Made by a program: the position numbers and the translations under genes. A DNA stretch of 64,000 nt from Bacteroides timonensis (lineage in GTDB: Bacteria; Bacteroidota; Bacteroidia; Bacteroidales; Bacteroidaceae), in assembly GCF_000513195.1 (NCBI RefSeq), contig NZ_CBVI010000002.1, positions 1 through 64,000 on the forward strand, written 5' to 3'. The notes below the pieces were generated by a model. The model was not told the origin of the DNA and searched no databases. It worked only from the letters and a program-made list of their open reading frames with translations. This document shows, in pieces, positions 2,648 through 11,087 of the stretch. Position 1 is the stretch's first letter. Every line of letters begins with the position of its first letter.

Positions 2648-3202
2648 TCATAACTCCGATGATAGAACCAAATCTCGCAGATTAGAATGCCGCATATCTT
2701 TTTCACTTACCAACACTTGCTCCACAGGTATTTTCCAGTTAATCCCCAAATCCGGGTCATTCCATGCCAAAGCACCTTCATACTCCGGAGCATAAAAATT
2801 ATCACACTTATATTGAAATATCACCTCATCGCTCAACACACTGAAACCATGCGCAAGACCTCTTGGTATAAAGAATTGACGATGATTTTCTTCTGTTAGT
2901 TCTACAGCTACATGCTGTCCGAAAGTCGGCGAACCTTTTCTTATATCTACAGCAACATCCAAAACAGTCCCCTTTACTACACGCACCAGTTTACTCTGTG
3001 CAAAAGGAGGTTTCTGAAAATGCAAACCACGAATGACACCGTAAGACGATTTAGATTCATTATCCTGCACAAATGTTGTCTTACAGACTTTTTCTTCAAA
3101 TTCTCTCTGATTGAAGGATTCAAAGAAGTAGCCACGTCCATCTTTAAAAAGACGTGGTTCTATGATGACAACCCCTTCAATGGCTGTTTTTATAATTTCC
3201 AT
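2648..3202 (-). CDS. rfbC: dTDP-4-dehydrorhamnose 3,5-epimerase (RfbC/RmlC family)
   Basis: The 184-residue cupin-type protein has the RmlC signatures GLHFQ, with the catalytic histidine, and FIPRGLAHGF. The length is normal for the family (about 180-190). RmlC converts dTDP-4-keto-6-deoxyglucose to the L-lyxo epimer in dTDP-rhamnose synthesis; close relatives perform single epimerisations for other deoxysugars. RmlA, RmlB and RmlD are not in the window, so they must lie beyond the left edge or elsewhere. The gene follows the foreign block at 3.2-5.3 kb and precedes wzx by 49 bp. Confidence 0.9.
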   Translation of the reverse strand: MEIIKTAIEGVVIIEPRLFKDGRGYFFESFNQREFEEKVCKTTFVQDNESKSSYGVIRGLHFQKPPFAQSKLVRVVKGTVLDVAVDIRKGSPTFGQHVAVELTEENHRQFFIPRGLAHGFSVLSDEVIFQYKCDNFYAPEYEGALAWNDPDLGINWKIPVEQVLVSEKDMRHSNLRDLVLSSEL

Positions 3203-4560: not shown

Positions 4561-4970
4561 TTACTTTCTATCTATCCAATTTTCTATCTTTACATTTTTA
4601 ACACGTTCAAAATGCCTCAAATTATCAGTCACCAACGTATAACCTTTAGCCATAGAGCACTGGCAATAAGTAAATCGAAATCATCTATAAGCAGACCTTC
4701 TTTACGAAGGCGTGACTTTTCGCGGGCATAAACATCTATACTGGCTTCAAAAGTAACAATATTGATGCAAGATAAAAAATGATCTAATTGATTACGTCTT
4801 TTAGAAGTAGCACCACCATATTCTAAACCATACTTGAGTTCAGCTACCGTAACAGATGATATATAGCAATTTTCAACACCTATTTCATCCATTTTTTGTG
4901 CAACATTATATTTGTCCCGAAATAGGAACACACAAATATTAGTATCAAGCAAATATTTCTTCATCCCCAA
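4561..4970 (-). pseudogene. vapC-like PIN-domain toxin, frameshifted near 4652
   Basis: The first 113 codons (4629-4970) encode a PIN-domain RNase: LLDTNICVFL with D9, VAELKYGLE, and IDDFDLLIASAL. They then run into unrelated WLKVIRW and stop. The missing C-terminus is present in another frame at 4561-4653, reading MAKGYTLVTDNLRHFERV then KNVKIENWIDRK, which is the standard VapC ending with the fourth acidic residue (VTDN). A one-base loss near 4652 explains this. The intact protein would have about 140 residues, normal for VapC. The gene overlaps the antitoxin by 10 bp. An assembly error or translational frameshift is the alternative. Confidence 0.8.
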
Positions 4971-5218
4971 GACTCAACTGTTCTTGTAAAAGTACGACTC
5001 TGGCGAATATCATCAATTATCTCATCTGTAGAACGAGAGTCATCATCCCACATCCCTCGAAATTCTTTCGTCCAACCTTCTTTGGCACCATTATTAGCCG
5101 GATTATCCAATAAGGAATTAGATAATTTGGCTATTAAAGCCAATTTTACATCTTTACCCAAGTTCTTTACAGAATTCCAATAAAGATCTATTTCGGAAAC
5201 TTTTGCATACTTATCCAT
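4961..5218 (-). CDS. VapB-like antitoxin partner of the PIN toxin
   Basis: This small protein (85 residues from the chosen start MDKYAKVSEIDLYW) precedes and overlaps the PIN toxin gene, the usual antitoxin-toxin order. The C-terminal FRGMWDDDSRSTDEIIDDIR and the RTF motif resemble antitoxins paired with PIN toxins in Bacteroidetes. An upstream in-frame ATG at 5263 exists, but an AGGAGG sequence 7 nt before the ATG at 5218 favours the shorter form. It would bind and neutralise the toxin and repress the operon. The antitoxin appears intact while the toxin is broken. Confidence 0.7.
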   Translation of the reverse strand: MDKYAKVSEIDLYWNSVKNLGKDVKLALIAKLSNSLLDNPANNGAKEGWTKEFRGMWDDDSRSTDEIIDDIRQSRTFTRTVESWG

Positions 5219-5393
5219 TGAACATCCTCCTATTACACCATTCATACTTTTAGAATAATACAAAGAACGGAATTTGGTTTATAAAAAGCAAATATTCAGC
5301 GAGGTTTCTATCAAACGCACTCTGTTTCTTTATTCTCCTAATGTCTACTATAGCATCATTATTGCATTCATATTTTATTCTTCAAATATACAC

Positions 5394-6494
5394 TCATCCA
5401 TCGGCAGACGTATCACGCAATCTATCCCACCACAAATTCAGCCCTATCCATACCACAATATCCACCATCAACATTATCGTATTATTCACATATGGCATCA
5501 ACAGTATATTTATCGCACTGAAAGCACATGACATGCCCAATAAGCCAATCATAGCTTTTCTCGGACTAAGTCCAATTGCCAATAATTTATGATGGATATG
5601 ATTCTTATCCGCCTCAAATGGACTTTTACCATTACGCACTCGAACCAATATCACTCGAATTACATCAAACGAAGGAATAATCAAAGTGCTGAAAGCAATC
5701 ACAAAGGCACCCTCTGTATATGACATTACATCAGGATTCACCTGGCTATATTTAATAGCAAGAAAACTCAAAGTGTATCCCAATGTCAAACTTCCTGTGT
5801 CTCCCATAAAGATCTTCCTGGCTCGTTCCGCGCTACCGAAAACATTATAGTAGAAGAATGGAACAAGAACGCCAAAGGTAGCGGCCGCCAACATTGCATA
5901 ACTCCAAAGCCCTTTCTCAATAAATAAAAAAGCAAAAATGAGAAGGGCTACACTGCTCAATCCGGATGCCAAACCATCAATTCCATCAATCAGATTTATT
6001 GCATTCGTGATAAATACAACAGTAAAAACTGTGAAAGGCATACCAATATAAGGAGCAAGTTCATGAATGCCGAACAAGCCGTACAAATTATTAATCCAAA
6101 GTCCGGACAACGGAAATAAACAAGCACAAAATATTTGGATAACAAATTTTTGACGATAACGAACACCCACCAAATCATCCGCTATTCCTGTCAGATAAAG
6201 CAAGGTCATTCCACATGCAAAAAGAAGCATTTCCGGCAACAAATAAGAAGCATAAAGAGTAGTAAGCTCACAGCCTAAAAGCAAACGGAAAGTGTAAACC
6301 AAACAATATGTAAAAAGCACAGTAGGAAAGAAAGAAACTCCACCTAAACGAGGAATGGCCTTCCTATGTATCTTACGGGAGTCCGGTATATCAAAAAGCT
6401 TCTTTCGCATAGATATCAGCAAGATACGCGGAATTAACATCCGAGCTATAAATACTGATATCAAGAAAGTTAGAAGAATAAATAGAATATTCAA
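5394..6494 (-). CDS. WecA/MraY-like polyprenyl-phosphate sugar-1-phosphate transferase
   Basis: This 366-residue integral membrane protein starts capsule repeat synthesis by moving a sugar-1-phosphate (often HexNAc-1-P) from a UDP-sugar to undecaprenyl phosphate. Family motifs are all present: PRLGG, the metal-binding DD in GIADD (D106-D107), NAINLIDGIDGLA, the FMGDTG motif, and the cytoplasmic HIHHKLL loop. About 10-11 helices are expected. The start is TTG at 6494; no ATG is available before residue 19. It directly follows upxZ in the capsule operon. Confidence 0.9.
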   Translation of the reverse strand: MNILFILLTFLISVFIARMLIPRILLISMRKKLFDIPDSRKIHRKAIPRLGGVSFFPTVLFTYCLVYTFRLLLGCELTTLYASYLLPEMLLFACGMTLLYLTGIADDLVGVRYRQKFVIQIFCACLFPLSGLWINNLYGLFGIHELAPYIGMPFTVFTVVFITNAINLIDGIDGLASGLSSVALLIFAFLFIEKGLWSYAMLAAATFGVLVPFFYYNVFGSAERARKIFMGDTGSLTLGYTLSFLAIKYSQVNPDVMSYTEGAFVIAFSTLIIPSFDVIRVILVRVRNGKSPFEADKNHIHHKLLAIGLSPRKAMIGLLGMSCAFSAINILLMPYVNNTIMLMVDIVVWIGLNLWWDRLRDTSADG

Positions 6495-6524
6495 GATGAA
6501 TATAAATTATAAATGATTAGTATG

Positions 6525-7007
6525 TTAACCAAGTACCTCAAAAGGATATTGATTTTCTTCAATATTCTTCAATTCTTCCATGACTTCCGCTTGTTCGGAA
6601 GTTAAAGTTCCTTTGTCCCACTGATCCATAATGGAATGAGCTTCTTGAAGCAAACTCTCTTCATAAATTTCGCCATAACAGTAAGTCAGCAAACGAACTT
6701 TAAGCAAAGAAGTTGGAAGCTGTTCCAGAATATTATAAGCGCGGTCTAATACAGATTGCTTCTTCTGCTCTTTATCTCCATAATCGTAGATCGTAGCATT
6801 GTAACCCATCAAAAGTGCCAGACACAGATTGGCTTCTTCTTCGATATCGGAACTCTTAGAGGAAAAAAGAGAATTGGACTTAACGAGAACTTCCTTATTC
6901 AACCGACAAAAAGTATCGGAATAGATAGGTTCGCCGTCCATACCAAGATACATCAGCTCATGAGCAGCACGTTGAAGCTCAAAAGCACAAGAAAGTAAAG
7001 AATTCAT
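6525..7007 (-). CDS. upxZ: UpxZ-like transcription anti-terminator antagonist
   Basis: The 160-residue soluble helical protein lies just after upxY, the conserved order in Bacteroides capsule operons. Its N-terminus (LLSCAFELQRAAHELMYLG) and overall length fit the UpxZ family. UpxZ proteins block UpxY proteins of other capsule loci, so one capsule tends to be expressed per cell. It is 16 bp from upxY. The family call rests on context plus resemblance. Confidence 0.85.
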   Translation of the reverse strand: MNSLLSCAFELQRAAHELMYLGMDGEPIYSDTFCRLNKEVLVKSNSLFSSKSSDIEEEANLCLALLMGYNATIYDYGDKEQKKQSVLDRAYNILEQLPTSLLKVRLLTYCYGEIYEESLLQEAHSIMDQWDKGTLTSEQAEVMEELKNIEENQYPFEVLG

Positions 7008-7023
7008 GGAGATTAATATATAA

Positions 7024-7563
7024 TTAGTTGATTAGCTTCAGATAAGACTTGGGGACTTTAATACTTGCGACTAAGACACCCTTGATACGAATAACAACAT
7101 AGGTTTTATTGGCTTGTGTGGCAATCTCACCTTCAATGCCGCTAAAATCCCCTTTGATGACCTTCACTTTATTCCCTATAGCAAAGGGTTCGCTATCAAA
7201 ACTGACTCCATCAGGATTCAAGTCCATAATAAACATGAAGTCTTCCATTTGTTTATTAGGGACCACCAACATGGAATGAGTGAAAAGGTCTTTCATATAA
7301 TAAAGGCGAACACCATAAACATTGGAAAGATCACAGGCAGTCTGCTTAGTAGCATAGATAAAGATTAAATTTCGAATAACAGGAACCTCAGTGCGCTTAC
7401 GGCGATACTTCAGCTGAGATACCACAATTCGCGTGGGAAGATAGTAATCAAGATCCAGGCCCTCTTCTGCCTTAAACTTATCTAGGGATTTTCGGACAGC
7501 AAACTCTTGCTTATCACGAGTACGGGCTGCAAACCAATATTTTTGATTTTCAATCACTTGCAA
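7024..7563 (-). CDS. upxY: UpxY-family NusG-like transcription antiterminator
   Basis: The 179-residue protein has an NGN-type N-domain beginning YWFAARTRDKQEFAVRK and a C-terminal KOW-type motif (about residues 127-160, IGNKVKVIKGDFSGIEGEI). UpxY proteins let RNA polymerase read through the leader of their own capsule operon. The start appears to be TTG at 7563 (GTG at codon 3 is the alternative). The frame stays open upstream to a TGA at 7654-7656 but has no ATG. As first gene of the operon it is separated from the promoter segment by a leader of roughly 140 bp. Confidence 0.9.
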   Translation of the reverse strand: MQVIENQKYWFAARTRDKQEFAVRKSLDKFKAEEGLDLDYYLPTRIVVSQLKYRRKRTEVPVIRNLIFIYATKQTACDLSNVYGVRLYYMKDLFTHSMLVVPNKQMEDFMFIMDLNPDGVSFDSEPFAIGNKVKVIKGDFSGIEGEIATQANKTYVVIRIKGVLVASIKVPKSYLKLIN

Positions 7564-7704
7564 AAAGTAAGTAGAGGATTTTACTATAGTTCCGGATGCG
7601 CTTCGCGGTTTGAACGAGACATATTCTCTTTCAAACCGTAACCAATAGATATTTCAATTTAATGAGCTATAAACGAAGATATTAAATTCGAAGAAACGCC
7701 TTTT

Positions 7705-7917
7705 AATCGTTCGTTTAATGGGCGTCAAGATTTGAGAAAAAACAGATAATTCAAAAACATAAAAAGGAAGAGATATTAAATATATTAAACGACAAAAATG
7801 TTAGACTGATTATCAATAATATAACTATATAAAAAGCCTAGTTCTAAAATATTTTTATTAAACATCTTGCAAGTTCAAAAAATACCCATTATCTTTGCGC
7901 CCATTAAACGAACGATT
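7705..7917. repeat. Inverted repeat pair bounding a probable invertible capsule promoter
   Basis: A perfect 20-bp inverted repeat has its left arm at 7705-7724 (AATCGTTCGTTTAATGGGCG) and the reverse complement at 7898-7917. Weaker symmetry extends about 7 bp inward (25 of 27 positions). The arms enclose 173 bp of A+T-rich DNA with one good Bacteroides promoter, directed rightward. The arm core ACGAACG resembles, from memory, the recombination site of the Mpi-type invertase at B. fragilis capsule promoters. In this orientation the promoter points away from upxY, so the capsule operon would be OFF. No recombinase gene is in the window. Confidence 0.85.
7867..7897 (+). promoter_or_regulatory. 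Promoter inside the invertible segment
   Basis: A -33 TTG at 7867-7869 lies 20 bp before a -7 element TATCTTTG at 7890-7897, matching the Bacteroides sigma-ABfr layout. The -7 box directly abuts the right inverted-repeat arm, so transcription would start within the arm. As sequenced it reads toward the plus-strand genes at 8.1 kb; after inversion it would read into upxY. Confidence 0.8.
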
Positions 7918-8013
7918 TTTGGACACCCCTATAATTTTAGAGTAACTATCTACATTTCAATATATTAACCAAACAAAAACCATCAACAAAAGAACTTTTT
8001 TTTATCAGTTCCA

Positions 8014-8045
8014 TTGCCAGTTACAAAAAGAAACTCCTACCTTTG
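8014..8045 (+). promoter_or_regulatory. Promoter for the AT-hook gene
   Basis: TTG at 8014-8016 and TACCTTTG at 8038-8045 are spaced 21 bp apart, outside the invertible segment. The expected start near 8052 gives a leader of about 54 nt before the ATG at 8106. Confidence 0.6.
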
Positions 8046-8105
8046 CCCGTTTTTCAAATCAAACATTTAATATAGATTTAATTATTACGTTAAATAAATA
8101 AAATT

Positions 8106-8494
8106 ATGGAACAAGAAGAAATGGCTGAAAGCCTTGAAAAAAAGACCTGAAACAGGCAAAAAAGTCACCTTTAAGAGGCAATGTATCAGAGATTAAGAGA
8201 AAACCCGGACGCCCTAAAGGTATAGTGGTAAAAGGGATACTTCCCAAATATCGAAAAGAAGGGATGATAGAACTGCTCAATTGGAGAGACAAAGGATTTT
8301 TCGGTAAAAAAGAAAACATATCCATTCACGAATTGGCAGACAAGGGTGCTGAATGGGAACTTTTTCTCTCTGACAGTAATACTCCACTATCAGCCAAGAC
8401 AATAGAAATAGAATTGGGAGAAATCTGGAGAGGTGAACATCTACAGAAAGTGATGGAGAAGAAGAGTAAAAACAAGAATAAAGACAAGAAATAA
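8106..8494 (+). pseudogene. AT-hook protein gene interrupted at an A7 tract
   Basis: From ATG 8106 the frame reads MEQEEMAESLEKKT and stops at TGA (8148-8150). Right after a run of seven A residues (8137-8143), another frame is open to 8494. It encodes DLKQAKKSPLRGNVSEIK, then the AT-hook core RKPGRPKG and about 90 more residues, ending in a Lys-rich tail. One extra A would join them into a continuous protein of about 128 residues. The downstream frame has no ATG before residue 14 of its GTG-started form. The gene is either broken, phase-variable, or read by polymerase slippage. AT-hooks bind the minor groove of A+T-rich DNA, so a regulatory role next to the capsule switch is conceivable. Confidence 0.6.
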
Positions 8495-8512
8495 ATGGAC
8501 AACAATTAAATA

Positions 8513-8545
8513 TTGACACCCTATATACAACCTGCTATATCTTTG
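8513..8545 (+). promoter_or_regulatory. Promoter upstream of the leader hairpin and DUF2693 gene
   Basis: TTG at 8513-8515 and TATCTTTG at 8538-8545 form a Bacteroides-type promoter with slightly long 22-bp spacing. The start would fall near 8552, 131 nt upstream of the DUF2693 gene. Confidence 0.6.
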
Positions 8546-8551
8546 CCCCCG

Positions 8552-8624
8552 CTTTAGCAAAGATTAAGCCCCGCAAATCGAGAAGATGTCGCTTTATCCC
8601 CAAAGTGATGTCTTCTCTTTTTTT
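8552..8624 (+). ncRNA. Candidate short leader RNA or sRNA of about 73 nt
   Basis: The promoter at 8513-8545 is followed after only about 30 nt by a full intrinsic terminator. A transcript that stops there would be about 73 nt and non-coding. It could be an independent small RNA or the terminated form of an attenuated leader for the gene at 8683. Only the arrangement supports this; no known RNA family is recognised. Confidence 0.35.
8580..8624 (+). terminator. Intrinsic terminator inside a gene leader
   Basis: Arms 8580-8595 and 8602-8617 pair over 16 positions (three of them G-U) around a 6-nt loop, ATCCCC. Seven T follow at 8618-8624. It is among the strongest hairpins in the window and lies between a promoter and the next coding region. 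Confidence 0.8.
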
Positions 8625-8682
8625 ATGCCCGACATAAACACCGACTAAAGAACTAAGAATTAATAATTTAAAATTAAACACA

Positions 8683-9030
8683 ATGAGAAATCGAAAGAAA
8701 CCCGCTTCAATCTATGAAGCACTCAGAAAGAAATGGAGAATACGAATCATGCTCGAAAAAGACTACACAGAAGACGCAGCACTATGGATGACCGACAGAG
8801 TAGAAAGCCTAATCAGCCACATGCAGTATGGATATGCACTCATAGCATACCATAAACAGGACGGAACCTTCAAGTTTGTAAAAGCAACACTACTTCCATA
8901 CGAAAAATGTTTCCGTCGGAAATACGATATACATCGTATAGAAGGGCACATCATCTACTGGGATGTGGAGTCACAAGCATGGAGAAGTTTCCAATTAGAG
9001 AATTTTCTGGAATGGAGACCGATCAATTGA
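8683..9030 (+). CDS. DUF2693-type SH3-like small protein
   Basis: The 115-residue protein resembles the DUF2693 family of small SH3/Sm-like beta-barrel proteins found in Bacteroides. Its core reads ALIAYHKQDGTFKFVKATLL and WDVESQAWRSFQLENFLEW. The N-terminus is Arg/Lys-rich (MRNRKKPASIYEALRKKWR). Function is unknown; genes of this type recur next to Bacteroides capsule loci with the DUF4373 gene, as here. The leader carries the terminator described at 8580-8624. Confidence 0.65.
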   Translation: MRNRKKPASIYEALRKKWRIRIMLEKDYTEDAALWMTDRVESLISHMQYGYALIAYHKQDGTFKFVKATLLPYEKCFRRKYDIHRIEGHIIYWDVESQAWRSFQLENFLEWRPIN

Positions 9031-9061
9031 ATGAAAGAATTAAAAATGAAAGAATAAAATT

Positions 9062-9910
9062 ATGGCAATGACGTATGGAGGGATTCAATATTATCCCATT
9101 TCAGTGGTACTCTTTGACGAGATATACATGGGGCTGATAGAAGCCAGGTTCGGAATGAAAGGCATAGCCATAGCGATGAAATTGCTATGCAAGATATACA
9201 AGGAAAACGGATATTACCTGCTTTGGGGAGAGGAACAATGCGCACTCTTCACCAATAAGGCGGGAAAAGATATCGATGAGGAAGAAATGCAGGGTATCGT
9301 GGATATTCTTGTAGATAAAGGATTCTTTGACAAACAAAGTTACGAGAAGCAGCAGGTTCTGACTTCCATAGAGATTCAGAAAGTATGGCTGGAAGCTACA
9401 AAACGTAGGAAAAGGGGGGATATAGCCTCCCTACCCTACATATTGGTGAAAACGGAAGAAGAAAAAAGCGATAAAGGTGATAAAGATGGTAAAGAGACAG
9501 AATGTATGCAAAATCCACAGAATTGCATACAGGACGTAGCCGATTCCACCGAAAATGCAGACAATTCCGGACAAAGCATAGTAGAGTATAGTAGAGCAGA
9601 GGAAAGCAAAGAACTCCCCCCACTAACTCCCCCGACGGGGGAGGATGTCGGTGTATGGAGAAGATATTCTTTCGTCGAGTTTCCGGGATACGCCTACAAC
9701 AAAAACACCCACAACCTGGAATGCCTCTTGCTCGCACTGGACGGACTGCATATCAACGATCCTAATGACGTGAAAGCGATTCTGAAGCTGTCCGACTACG
9801 GACGGCTGGGAAACGGGGTCTGGAAAATCATACATGCAACCAAGTGGAGCATAGTGAACAGCAAAGGGAAATATCTGGTCGGAGCACTGAACAAGGCGAG
9901 AAATCAATAG
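9062..9910 (+). CDS. DUF4373 (Lin1244/Lin1753-like) protein
   Basis: The 282-residue protein begins with the DUF4373 domain (about residues 5-110; YYPISVVLFDEIYMGLIEARFGMKG follows that family's pattern). This is a winged-helix-like replication-initiator-type fold common in Bacteroides and phages. The middle is a hydrophilic linker (about 130-200) that includes PPLTPPTGEDVG, encoded by a G+C-rich hairpin at 9627-9643. The C-terminal part (about 205-282) is more ordered. DUF4373 genes commonly flank capsule loci. The molecular role is not established. Confidence 0.7.
   Translation: MAMTYGGIQYYPISVVLFDEIYMGLIEARFGMKGIAIAMKLLCKIYKENGYYLLWGEEQCALFTNKAGKDIDEEEMQGIVDILVDKGFFDKQSYEKQQVLTSIEIQKVWLEATKRRKRGDIASLPYILVKTEEEKSDKGDKDGKETECMQNPQNCIQDVADSTENADNSGQSIVEYSRAEESKELPPLTPPTGEDVGVWRRYSFVEFPGYAYNKNTHNLECLLLALDGLHINDPNDVKAILKLSDYGRLGNGVWKIIHATKWSIVNSKGKYLVGALNKARNQ
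9627..9643. repeat. REP-like G+C hairpin inside a coding region
   Basis: CTCCCCCGACGGGGGAG is a palindrome with 7-bp arms and a 3-nt loop. It is in frame with the DUF4373 gene and encodes part of PLTPPTGED. Related patches occur near 3530 and 3615. Confidence 0.6.
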
Positions 9911-9961
9911 CTTGGAAAGCAGAAAAAAAGTCTAAAACCGGGCACTGATTATCAGAGGATT

Positions 9962-10034
9962 ACAAGGAGTTAACTTCCTGCCGACAAGGAGTTAACTTCT
10001 TGTAGACAAACTCTTAACTTCTTGTAAACAAGGA
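9962..10034. repeat. 22-bp tandem repeat, three units plus a partial fourth
   Basis: Units start at 9962, 9984 and 10006 with a partial unit at 10028. Unit 2 reads ACAAGGAGTTAACTTCTTGT plus AG and is itself nearly palindromic. Unit 3 is identical to the last unit of the repeat at 60083-60104. The array lies between two converging genes and could fold into a hairpin or terminator. Confidence 0.85.
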
Positions 10035-10103
10035 TTTGGTGGTAGAATGCGTCATCCGATAAACGTATTCCGTCCTTATCCTTTTCAGCTACACCCACAA
10101 ATT

Positions 10104-11087
10104 CTACCTTGACCGATTTACCAACGACAAATGTAACCAGCCATAAATACCCAATACAATAACCAGCAATGTCTGTATACCATGTACTATCAGGGCAAAA
10201 ACTCCCGCATCGGTAGCATTGACACCGTATAGCATCATCATTGTAATGACAGCGAAATGCCACGGTCCCGCCCCATTAGGAGTAGGGACAATCACAGCAA
10301 AAGTGCCGCCCACAAACATCACCAGACTTGCCAGAAAACTGAGATGTTCAGTAAAAGCGAAGCAATAGAAAGTGATATAAAAGTGATAAAAGTAGCATAT
10401 CCATATCAACACCGTGTAAAGGAGGAAAAGCGGTATATTCTTCACACTCTTCAATGACATCACACCTTCCCATACATTCAGCACCACTCCTTTCACTTTC
10501 TCGAAGAAAGAAAGCATACGCAGAAGGAAATAGAGTAATACTAATACACCAATGATACTAAAAAGAACGACATAAAACCAGGGAGATGTCACCAGATGCA
10601 CCAACGAAGGGACTTTCGTACCTGTCTCTTCAAAAAAACGAAGGAAGACAGGCATCTGCATCAGAAAAGTAATCCCGGTAATCAAAAGAATGGTCAATGT
10701 ATCTATCAAGCGTTCCGTTACCACTGTTCCAAGCGATTTGGCAAAAGAAACATCGTCATATTTGGCAAGCACACCGCAACGGGAAACTTCGCCTACACGG
10801 GGTAAAACAAGATTAGCGGCATAAGAAACAAAGATAGCATCCACACAATCGCTCGTCTTTGGATAAGCTCCGAGCGGAGCAAGCGTCTGTTTCCAACGCC
10901 AGCCACGGAAAACATGGCTCATCACACCAAAAAACAACGAAAACAGCATCCATCCCCAGTCCGTTCCATGCAGAAGTACCTCCTTGGCGCGTGCAAAATC
11001 AAAATCTCGATACACCCAATAAAGAATAAAACCGCCCAAAGCGACCGGTAAAAGGATCTTCAGTGTCTTTTTTAATAGTTTATTCAT
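10104..11087 (-). CDS. Flippase-like membrane protein (LPG synthase TM region/UPF0104)
   Basis: The 327 residues form a polytopic membrane protein with about 8 helices. It resembles the transmembrane half of MprF and the YbhN/UPF0104 group. Family-like segments include GWRWKQTL, the SYAANLVLPRVGEVSRCG stretch, and the late GGTFAVIVPTPNGAGPWHFA motif. The proposed role is lipid or lipid-linked substrate flipping, but the substrate is unknown. It diverges from ksgA with separate promoter elements in the 113-bp gap. Confidence 0.8.
   Translation of the reverse strand: MNKLLKKTLKILLPVALGGFILYWVYRDFDFARAKEVLLHGTDWGWMLFSLFFGVMSHVFRGWRWKQTLAPLGAYPKTSDCVDAIFVSYAANLVLPRVGEVSRCGVLAKYDDVSFAKSLGTVVTERLIDTLTILLITGITFLMQMPVFLRFFEETGTKVPSLVHLVTSPWFYVVLFSIIGVLVLLYFLLRMLSFFEKVKGVVLNVWEGVMSLKSVKNIPLFLLYTVLIWICYFYHFYITFYCFAFTEHLSFLASLVMFVGGTFAVIVPTPNGAGPWHFAVITMMMLYGVNATDAGVFALIVHGIQTLLVIVLGIYGWLHLSLVNRSR

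Follow-up and report, generated by a model that had tools for sequence, protein, structure and literature searches.

The segment at positions 7725-7897 of the Bacteroides timonensis DNA analyzed here (the window, a stretch of 64,000 nucleotides) is predicted to be an invertible capsule promoter lying in the OFF orientation. The enzyme that would flip it and thereby turn on the upxY-upxZ operon is a serine invertase, most likely the Mpi orthologue of contig C130; we give this reading a probability of about 93%. The initial annotation had proposed an invertible capsule promoter caught OFF, and this proposal is supported by paired copies of the element, by flanks that are kept among them, by a reversed relative, by the Mpi orthologue and by identity with elements of B. 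intestinalis.

Repeat and promoter scans bore out what the initial annotation gave for 7705-7917, namely the coordinates, the two arms, the promoter and its direction. Over 20 bp the arms (7705-7724 and 7898-7917) match each other perfectly as reverse complements; 173 bp lie between them, and the extended repeat covers 27 bp at 93% (7705-7731 versus 7891-7917). The perfect 10-bp inverted repeat GTTCGTTTAA forms the core of both, at 7709-7718 on the + strand in the left, upxY-proximal arm and at 7904-7913 on the - strand in the right, upxY-distal arm, with 185 bp (7719-7903) between the two cores. The core had been likened to the Mpi site; both window arms (AATCGTTCGTT) have one mismatch to the published core ARACGTTCGTN, and several distal sister arms read AAACGTTCGT. 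Of the perfect inverted repeats with a loop of 50-400 bases, the window has two of at least 14 bp (20 and 14 bp), the one at 7705-7917 being the longest; none was present in 30 dinucleotide shuffles, and a chance repeat was rejected on this ground. The wider alternative, that the repeat arose by chance or forms a structured regulatory element that does not invert, is scarcely credible, as it is also opposed by the many copies with near-constant geometry and, for the element class, by the reversed interior between genomes at a locus of the same kind (C125, described below). An Rfam identity for the region was also considered and rejected; at positions 5000-11000 two matches with E up to 1 were obtained, both under their gathering scores.

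The promoter TTG-N20-TATCTTTG (7867-7897, + strand) fits the Bacteroides consensus, lies inside the segment and ends where the right arm starts. It is the only strict -33/-7 match in the 173-bp interior and points away from UpxY and UpxZ, which are encoded on the - strand to the left, as first described. Its direction and the flank comparison given below assign the OFF orientation to the interior in this assembly. The earlier statement that no other leftward promoter was seen in the segment holds for the strict pattern, which has no leftward match at 6001-10000. With one mismatch allowed, the segment has a leftward candidate at 7844-7872; estimated roughly by hand, chance alone would give about 0.3 matches of this kind over the 391 bases scanned. 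Mirrored about the repeat centre, 7867-7897 falls at 7725-7755, some 160 bp from the TTG that opens the longest upxY frame; the initial annotation had put the inverted promoter about 150 bp upstream of upxY.

To the left of the element lies a capsule operon on the - strand, with upxY and upxZ as its first genes. The transcription antiterminator gene upxY (7024-7563) matches NCBIfam NF033644 with 162 bits (cut-off 100), and its start is uncertain, since the longest frame opens with TTG and has no in-frame ATG. It is followed by upxZ (6525-7007; PF06603, 159 bits, cut-off 21), by family an antagonist of antitermination. Profile matches further identified a WecA-like glycosyl transferase family 4 protein below the WecA cut-off (5394-6494), the dTDP-4-dehydrorhamnose 3,5-epimerase gene rmlC (2648-3202), a polysaccharide flippase of the Wzx type (1153-2598) and a DegT/DnrJ-family sugar aminotransferase (17-1126), all on the same strand. 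A PIN-domain protein (PF01850) is encoded at 4629-4970, inside the capsule operon region.

Several sister copies were found in the same genome (G000; 7.0 Mb, 211 contigs). A 17-base arm pattern with up to three mismatches occurs at 24 places, 16 of them with up to two. Fifteen of these 16 sites, together with one three-mismatch site, form eight pairs spaced 189-192 bp start to start, and the sixteenth is single, on contig C116. Among the eight three-mismatch matches one is the arm of the C86 pair; the seven unpaired ones were dropped as chance, because a reversed control pattern gave 26 places versus 24. All eight pairs have one strict promoter against one arm and an adjoining upxY-upxZ. The comparison of the arms with the other capsule loci of the genome agrees with the proposed switch. 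The genome has 10 upxY matches over the NCBIfam cut-off and nine upxZ matches. The tenth upxY over the cut-off (C15:30488-31984) has no upxZ match and is preceded by a tyrosine recombinase match; perhaps this locus has a different type of switch.

The orientation of the eight pairs is OFF in seven (C2, which is the window copy, C24, C48, two on C73, C86 and C104) and ON in one (C125). In the seven OFF copies the upxY-side flank ends with TTTTAATCG and the far flank resembles TGTTCAAAAAACG, a likeness that is weakest in C86, where the far flank resembles the near flank. The ON copy has the same near flank, TTTTAATCG, and far flank, TGTTCAAAAAACG, with the promoter opposite to that of the OFF copies. 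The same flanks at upxY with a reversed promoter indicate that the flanks stayed in place and the interior turned.

Inversion is visible between genomes, at the sister locus on C125 rather than at the window locus, as judged from sequence comparison. The C125 locus is ON in the own genome, in B. cellulosilyticus (G042) and in G073, and OFF in G057. In the alignment of the own locus with that of G057 (G057e), 488/503 and 498/501 flank columns are identical, while the interior has 115/215 identical columns as it stands and 200/203 when inverted. For the window locus the assembly gives one orientation, and the loci compared include no ON copy; OFF is also the state of its orthologue in B. cellulosilyticus, whose UpxY is 98% identical, and of a related locus in B. 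oleiciplenus.

The single site on C116 (L162, G000:C116:38600-39450) belongs to a locus where the promoter faces upxY and the proximal site is kept, but the second arm is absent. A colinear region is present in 6 of the 8 genomes searched, with the same appearance in four (L195-L198). In C116 and these four loci, the best match to a second arm within 600 bp upstream has at least 4 mismatches of 13. The promoter is also kept in L199 and L200, where the site is beyond one mismatch. From its sequence, the C116 locus is apparently fixed ON.

For the genus, a strict pair was defined as GTTCGTTTAAT-N165-190-ATTAAACGAAC, which occurs in 19 of 149 genomes, and in none as the reversed control. The 58 elements examined in these 19 genomes comprise 57 of the 61 listed strict pairs (the other four are three of G061 and one of G148) and the own C86 pair, which the strict pattern misses. 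An upxY could be assigned to 50 of the 58, and 48 of these 50 have a strict promoter abutting one arm, 9 ON and 39 OFF; this count leaves out the eight elements with no assigned upxY and the two with no strict promoter, and its loci are not independent events, many being related and some near-copies (e.g. G117a/G043 and G073a/G073b). Of the 48, 38 have TATCTTTG as the -7 box; spacers measure 19 or 20, and in every case 15 or 16 bp separate the box from the core end. None of the 50 loci gave a strict promoter within 600 bp between element and upxY, and two have a looser -7-like box within 170 bp. With the pattern used, no paired arms were found in viral contigs. Pairs with the same core also occur at L151-L155 (G061, G148 and G049), where no upxY was found in the stretches fetched.

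The orientation counts bear on the very unlikely case that the window element is a former invertible promoter, now stuck OFF. Two related loci, L109 and L128, are likewise OFF, and arm loss does occur, as the one-armed C116 locus illustrates. However, two OFF relatives say little, because most scored copies (39/48) are OFF anyway, and at the window both arms keep the 10-bp core and their 20-bp identity, with a promoter that fits the consensus.

The site of exchange may be located by symmetry. Over 100 sites of 50 elements, symmetry peaks at the central TT of CGTTCG (8.66 of 14 positions), against at most 5.53 at 16 other centres. At the eight outermost half-site positions, whose outer side is not fixed by the search pattern, 4.15/8 positions are symmetric, versus 2.46 after shuffling, with a maximum of 2.83 in 1000 shuffles. 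A 2-bp centre is usual for serine invertases, which argues against a tyrosine recombinase as the acting enzyme. The central TT of CG-TT-CG would be the exchange point, given that symmetry is highest there and that upxY keeps its outer flanks. The invertase would invert 7725-7897 and so switch on the capsule operon to the left. The turned promoter would then have its transcription start within the proximal arm, some 160 bp ahead of upxY, a placement reported for B. intestinalis. According to the literature on both families, UpxY would carry the polymerase through the operon, and UpxZ would hinder other loci.

Two genes of the genome are over the cut-off of the NCBIfam Mpi family (NF009949, 272 bits), one on C130 (287.5 bits) and one on C3 (302.9 bits). 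The C130 match extends past the stop of the gene, and the gene itself is open; the C3 gene, at G000:C3:7016-7612, encodes a second Mpi-family serine recombinase. Primers for B. fragilis mpi and for PSA are given in PMC10939037. Among 30 loci checked, only the G081 gene has both published mpi primers with no mismatch, and G081 also holds an arm that is the reverse complement of the PSA primer. With this primer-matched mpi gene of G081 the C130 gene, the Mpi orthologue of the genome, shares 77% identity. Orthologues of C130 are present in 27 of the 149 genomes (at least 64% identity; the next matches have at most 55%), and strict pairs in 18 of these 27 carriers versus 1 of the 122 other genomes (Fisher p about 1e-15, kinship not corrected for). 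The exceptions include G035 (87% complete), with an orthologue and no pair found, and G148 (60% complete), with pairs and no orthologue found. A relaxed core was run on 34 genomes, namely the nine carriers with no strict pairs, G148 and 24 other non-carriers. It matched in 8 of the 9 carriers (seven of them at 2 or more places), in G148 and, on one strand only, in 2 of the 24 other non-carriers. This evidence is weaker than the strict count, because 16 of the 34 genomes also had matches to the reversed control, one or two on a strand.

C130 is the probable acting enzyme, although the genome also has the second Mpi-family gene on C3. The switch might be worked by this C3 gene, which is over the Mpi cut-off, or by one of the tyrosine recombinases, of which the genome has 36 matches, rather than by C130, and we regard both as improbable. 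None of the 45 genomes with only distant C130 matches (at most 55% identity) has a strict pair. No PF00589 match is on the window contig C2 among the 36 listed, and no recombinase gene was matched beside the switch, whereas tyrosine-recombinase switches of this kind are described with an adjoining recombinase gene in PMC12118408 and PMC11892184. The Mpi orthologue on C130 remains the preferred candidate.

To the right of the element lies a divergent cassette on the + strand. It has a promoter-like site of its own outside the switch (8014-8045), whose -7 box starts 125 bp from the element core. A small gene with two overlapping frames follows (8106-8494), in which the ATG frame at 8106-8150 and the long frame at 8138-8494, in -1, meet at A AAA AAG (8138-8144). 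The stretch KRKPGRPKG of this gene is one that we take to resemble an AT-hook. The promoter scan gave a second promoter-like site at 8513-8545, and about 35 nt past it a 16-bp terminator-like hairpin with a T-run (8580-8624, z -5.2) precedes a WYL_2 gene (PF10902, 8683-9030); perhaps this site and hairpin (8513-8624) form a short RNA or an attenuated leader. A Lin1244_N gene (PF14297, 9062-9910) comes next, the last two genes being assigned by profile matches. No literature linking DUF4373 with capsule was found.

A WYL_2 gene divergent from upxY occurs in 24 of the 50 loci, each time preceded by a long frame (107-136 codons) that has no ATG at its start; only ATG was considered as a start, and an ATG lies further inside the frame in three of the 24. 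In all 24, a short frame opened by an ATG at about 156-193 bp overlaps the long frame around an A-run of at least 6. The shift between the two frames is -1 in 17 loci and +1 in 6, both are possible in one, and the two are in frame in none. The long frame is under protein-level constraint outside its first 30 codons (e.g. G117a versus G047e, pS 0.28 and pN 0.02; 14 pairs tested); over the first 30 codons the constraint is weaker and, in some pairs, absent. Among 18 database relatives of the small gene, eight of which were read, P0122 has both parts in a single frame and P0121 has a different beginning, in frame. From these frames we infer that the small gene is decoded by programmed frameshifting or slippage. 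In the window, the sequence 3' of the A-run has no unusual stimulatory fold (z -0.55).

The position of these genes raises the possibility of a two-way switch, in which the OFF promoter drives the divergent small gene and the WYL_2 and Lin1244 genes. All 24 divergent WYL_2 genes are directed away from the element, with their starts 634-816 bp off, and in the window the OFF promoter faces the cassette, with the first strong terminator-like hairpin about 700 bp on and a weaker one at about 450. However, 16 of the 24 loci, window included, have a -7 box belonging to the cassette at 121-125 bp from the element, so that the cassette need not depend on the switch. The terminator-like hairpin ahead of WYL_2, with similar ones in 10 other loci, speaks against this reading as well. 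A two-way switch is thus unlikely, and slightly less likely still is a full toggle in which capsule OFF would be ON for the cassette, with its frameshift-decoded AT-hook-like gene, WYL_2 and Lin1244-type protein. If such a toggle were true, each of these loci would set capsule expression against that of its own regulator. The more uncommon feature may be the gene with the split frame next to the switches.

On the preferred reading, of a capsule switch that would act on upxY-upxZ, the genome would join the bacteria that shuffle capsules by promoter flipping, and the arms are tied to a named invertase by co-occurrence over 149 genomes. The rule that the outer flanks stay with upxY makes ON and OFF legible from bare assemblies in the clade. 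In B. intestinalis, sensitivity to phages has been linked to the state of the capsule (PMC8375218), so that such an ON/OFF census would be of use.

The system can be compared with three others. In B. fragilis, seven of the eight capsule promoters (PSA-PSH) invert under one global invertase, as stated in PMC12632263 and PMC3090145; here, eight of the nine upxY-upxZ loci have paired arms, and the single-arm C116 locus recalls the one non-invertible capsule locus of B. fragilis. Both have upxY and upxZ as first genes and an orthologous invertase, 77% identical, but the arms differ outside the ACGTTCGT core, as the PSA primer reads ACGTTCGTCTTTTGGAACACC (PMC10939037). Tyrosine-recombinase invertons, described for example for B. 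xylanisolvens in PMC12118408 and with cluster 3b invertases in PMC11892184, likewise place an invertible promoter before an upxY capsule operon, and UpxY is enriched beside invertons in a defined community according to PMC11892184. However, these invertons have another repeat, segments of about 280-290 bp and an adjoining recombinase gene, while none of this kind was matched on the window contig.

The closest likeness is to B. intestinalis, the species described in the literature found for GTTCGTTTAA and capsule, part of which also covers other species. In strain APC919/174, PVR7, 8, 9, 11 and 12 are phase-variable capsule promoters (PMC8375218), with the same 10-bp repeat GTTCGTTTAA, a segment of 183-186 bp (185 in the window) and adjacent capsule operons. 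For these CPS loci PMC8375218, restated in PMC12118408, gives read-based measurements of both orientations and places the approximate start of transcription within the proximal repeat, while for the window element orientation and start are inferred. In wild-type B. intestinalis a single locus is mostly ON and the rest mostly OFF (PMC8375218), as in this genome, which for its part has eight paired copies and one single-arm copy. The shared core, spacing and capsule context suggest that the window element is a further member of this kind; the system would then be one already known, of which the window most likely holds one more copy.
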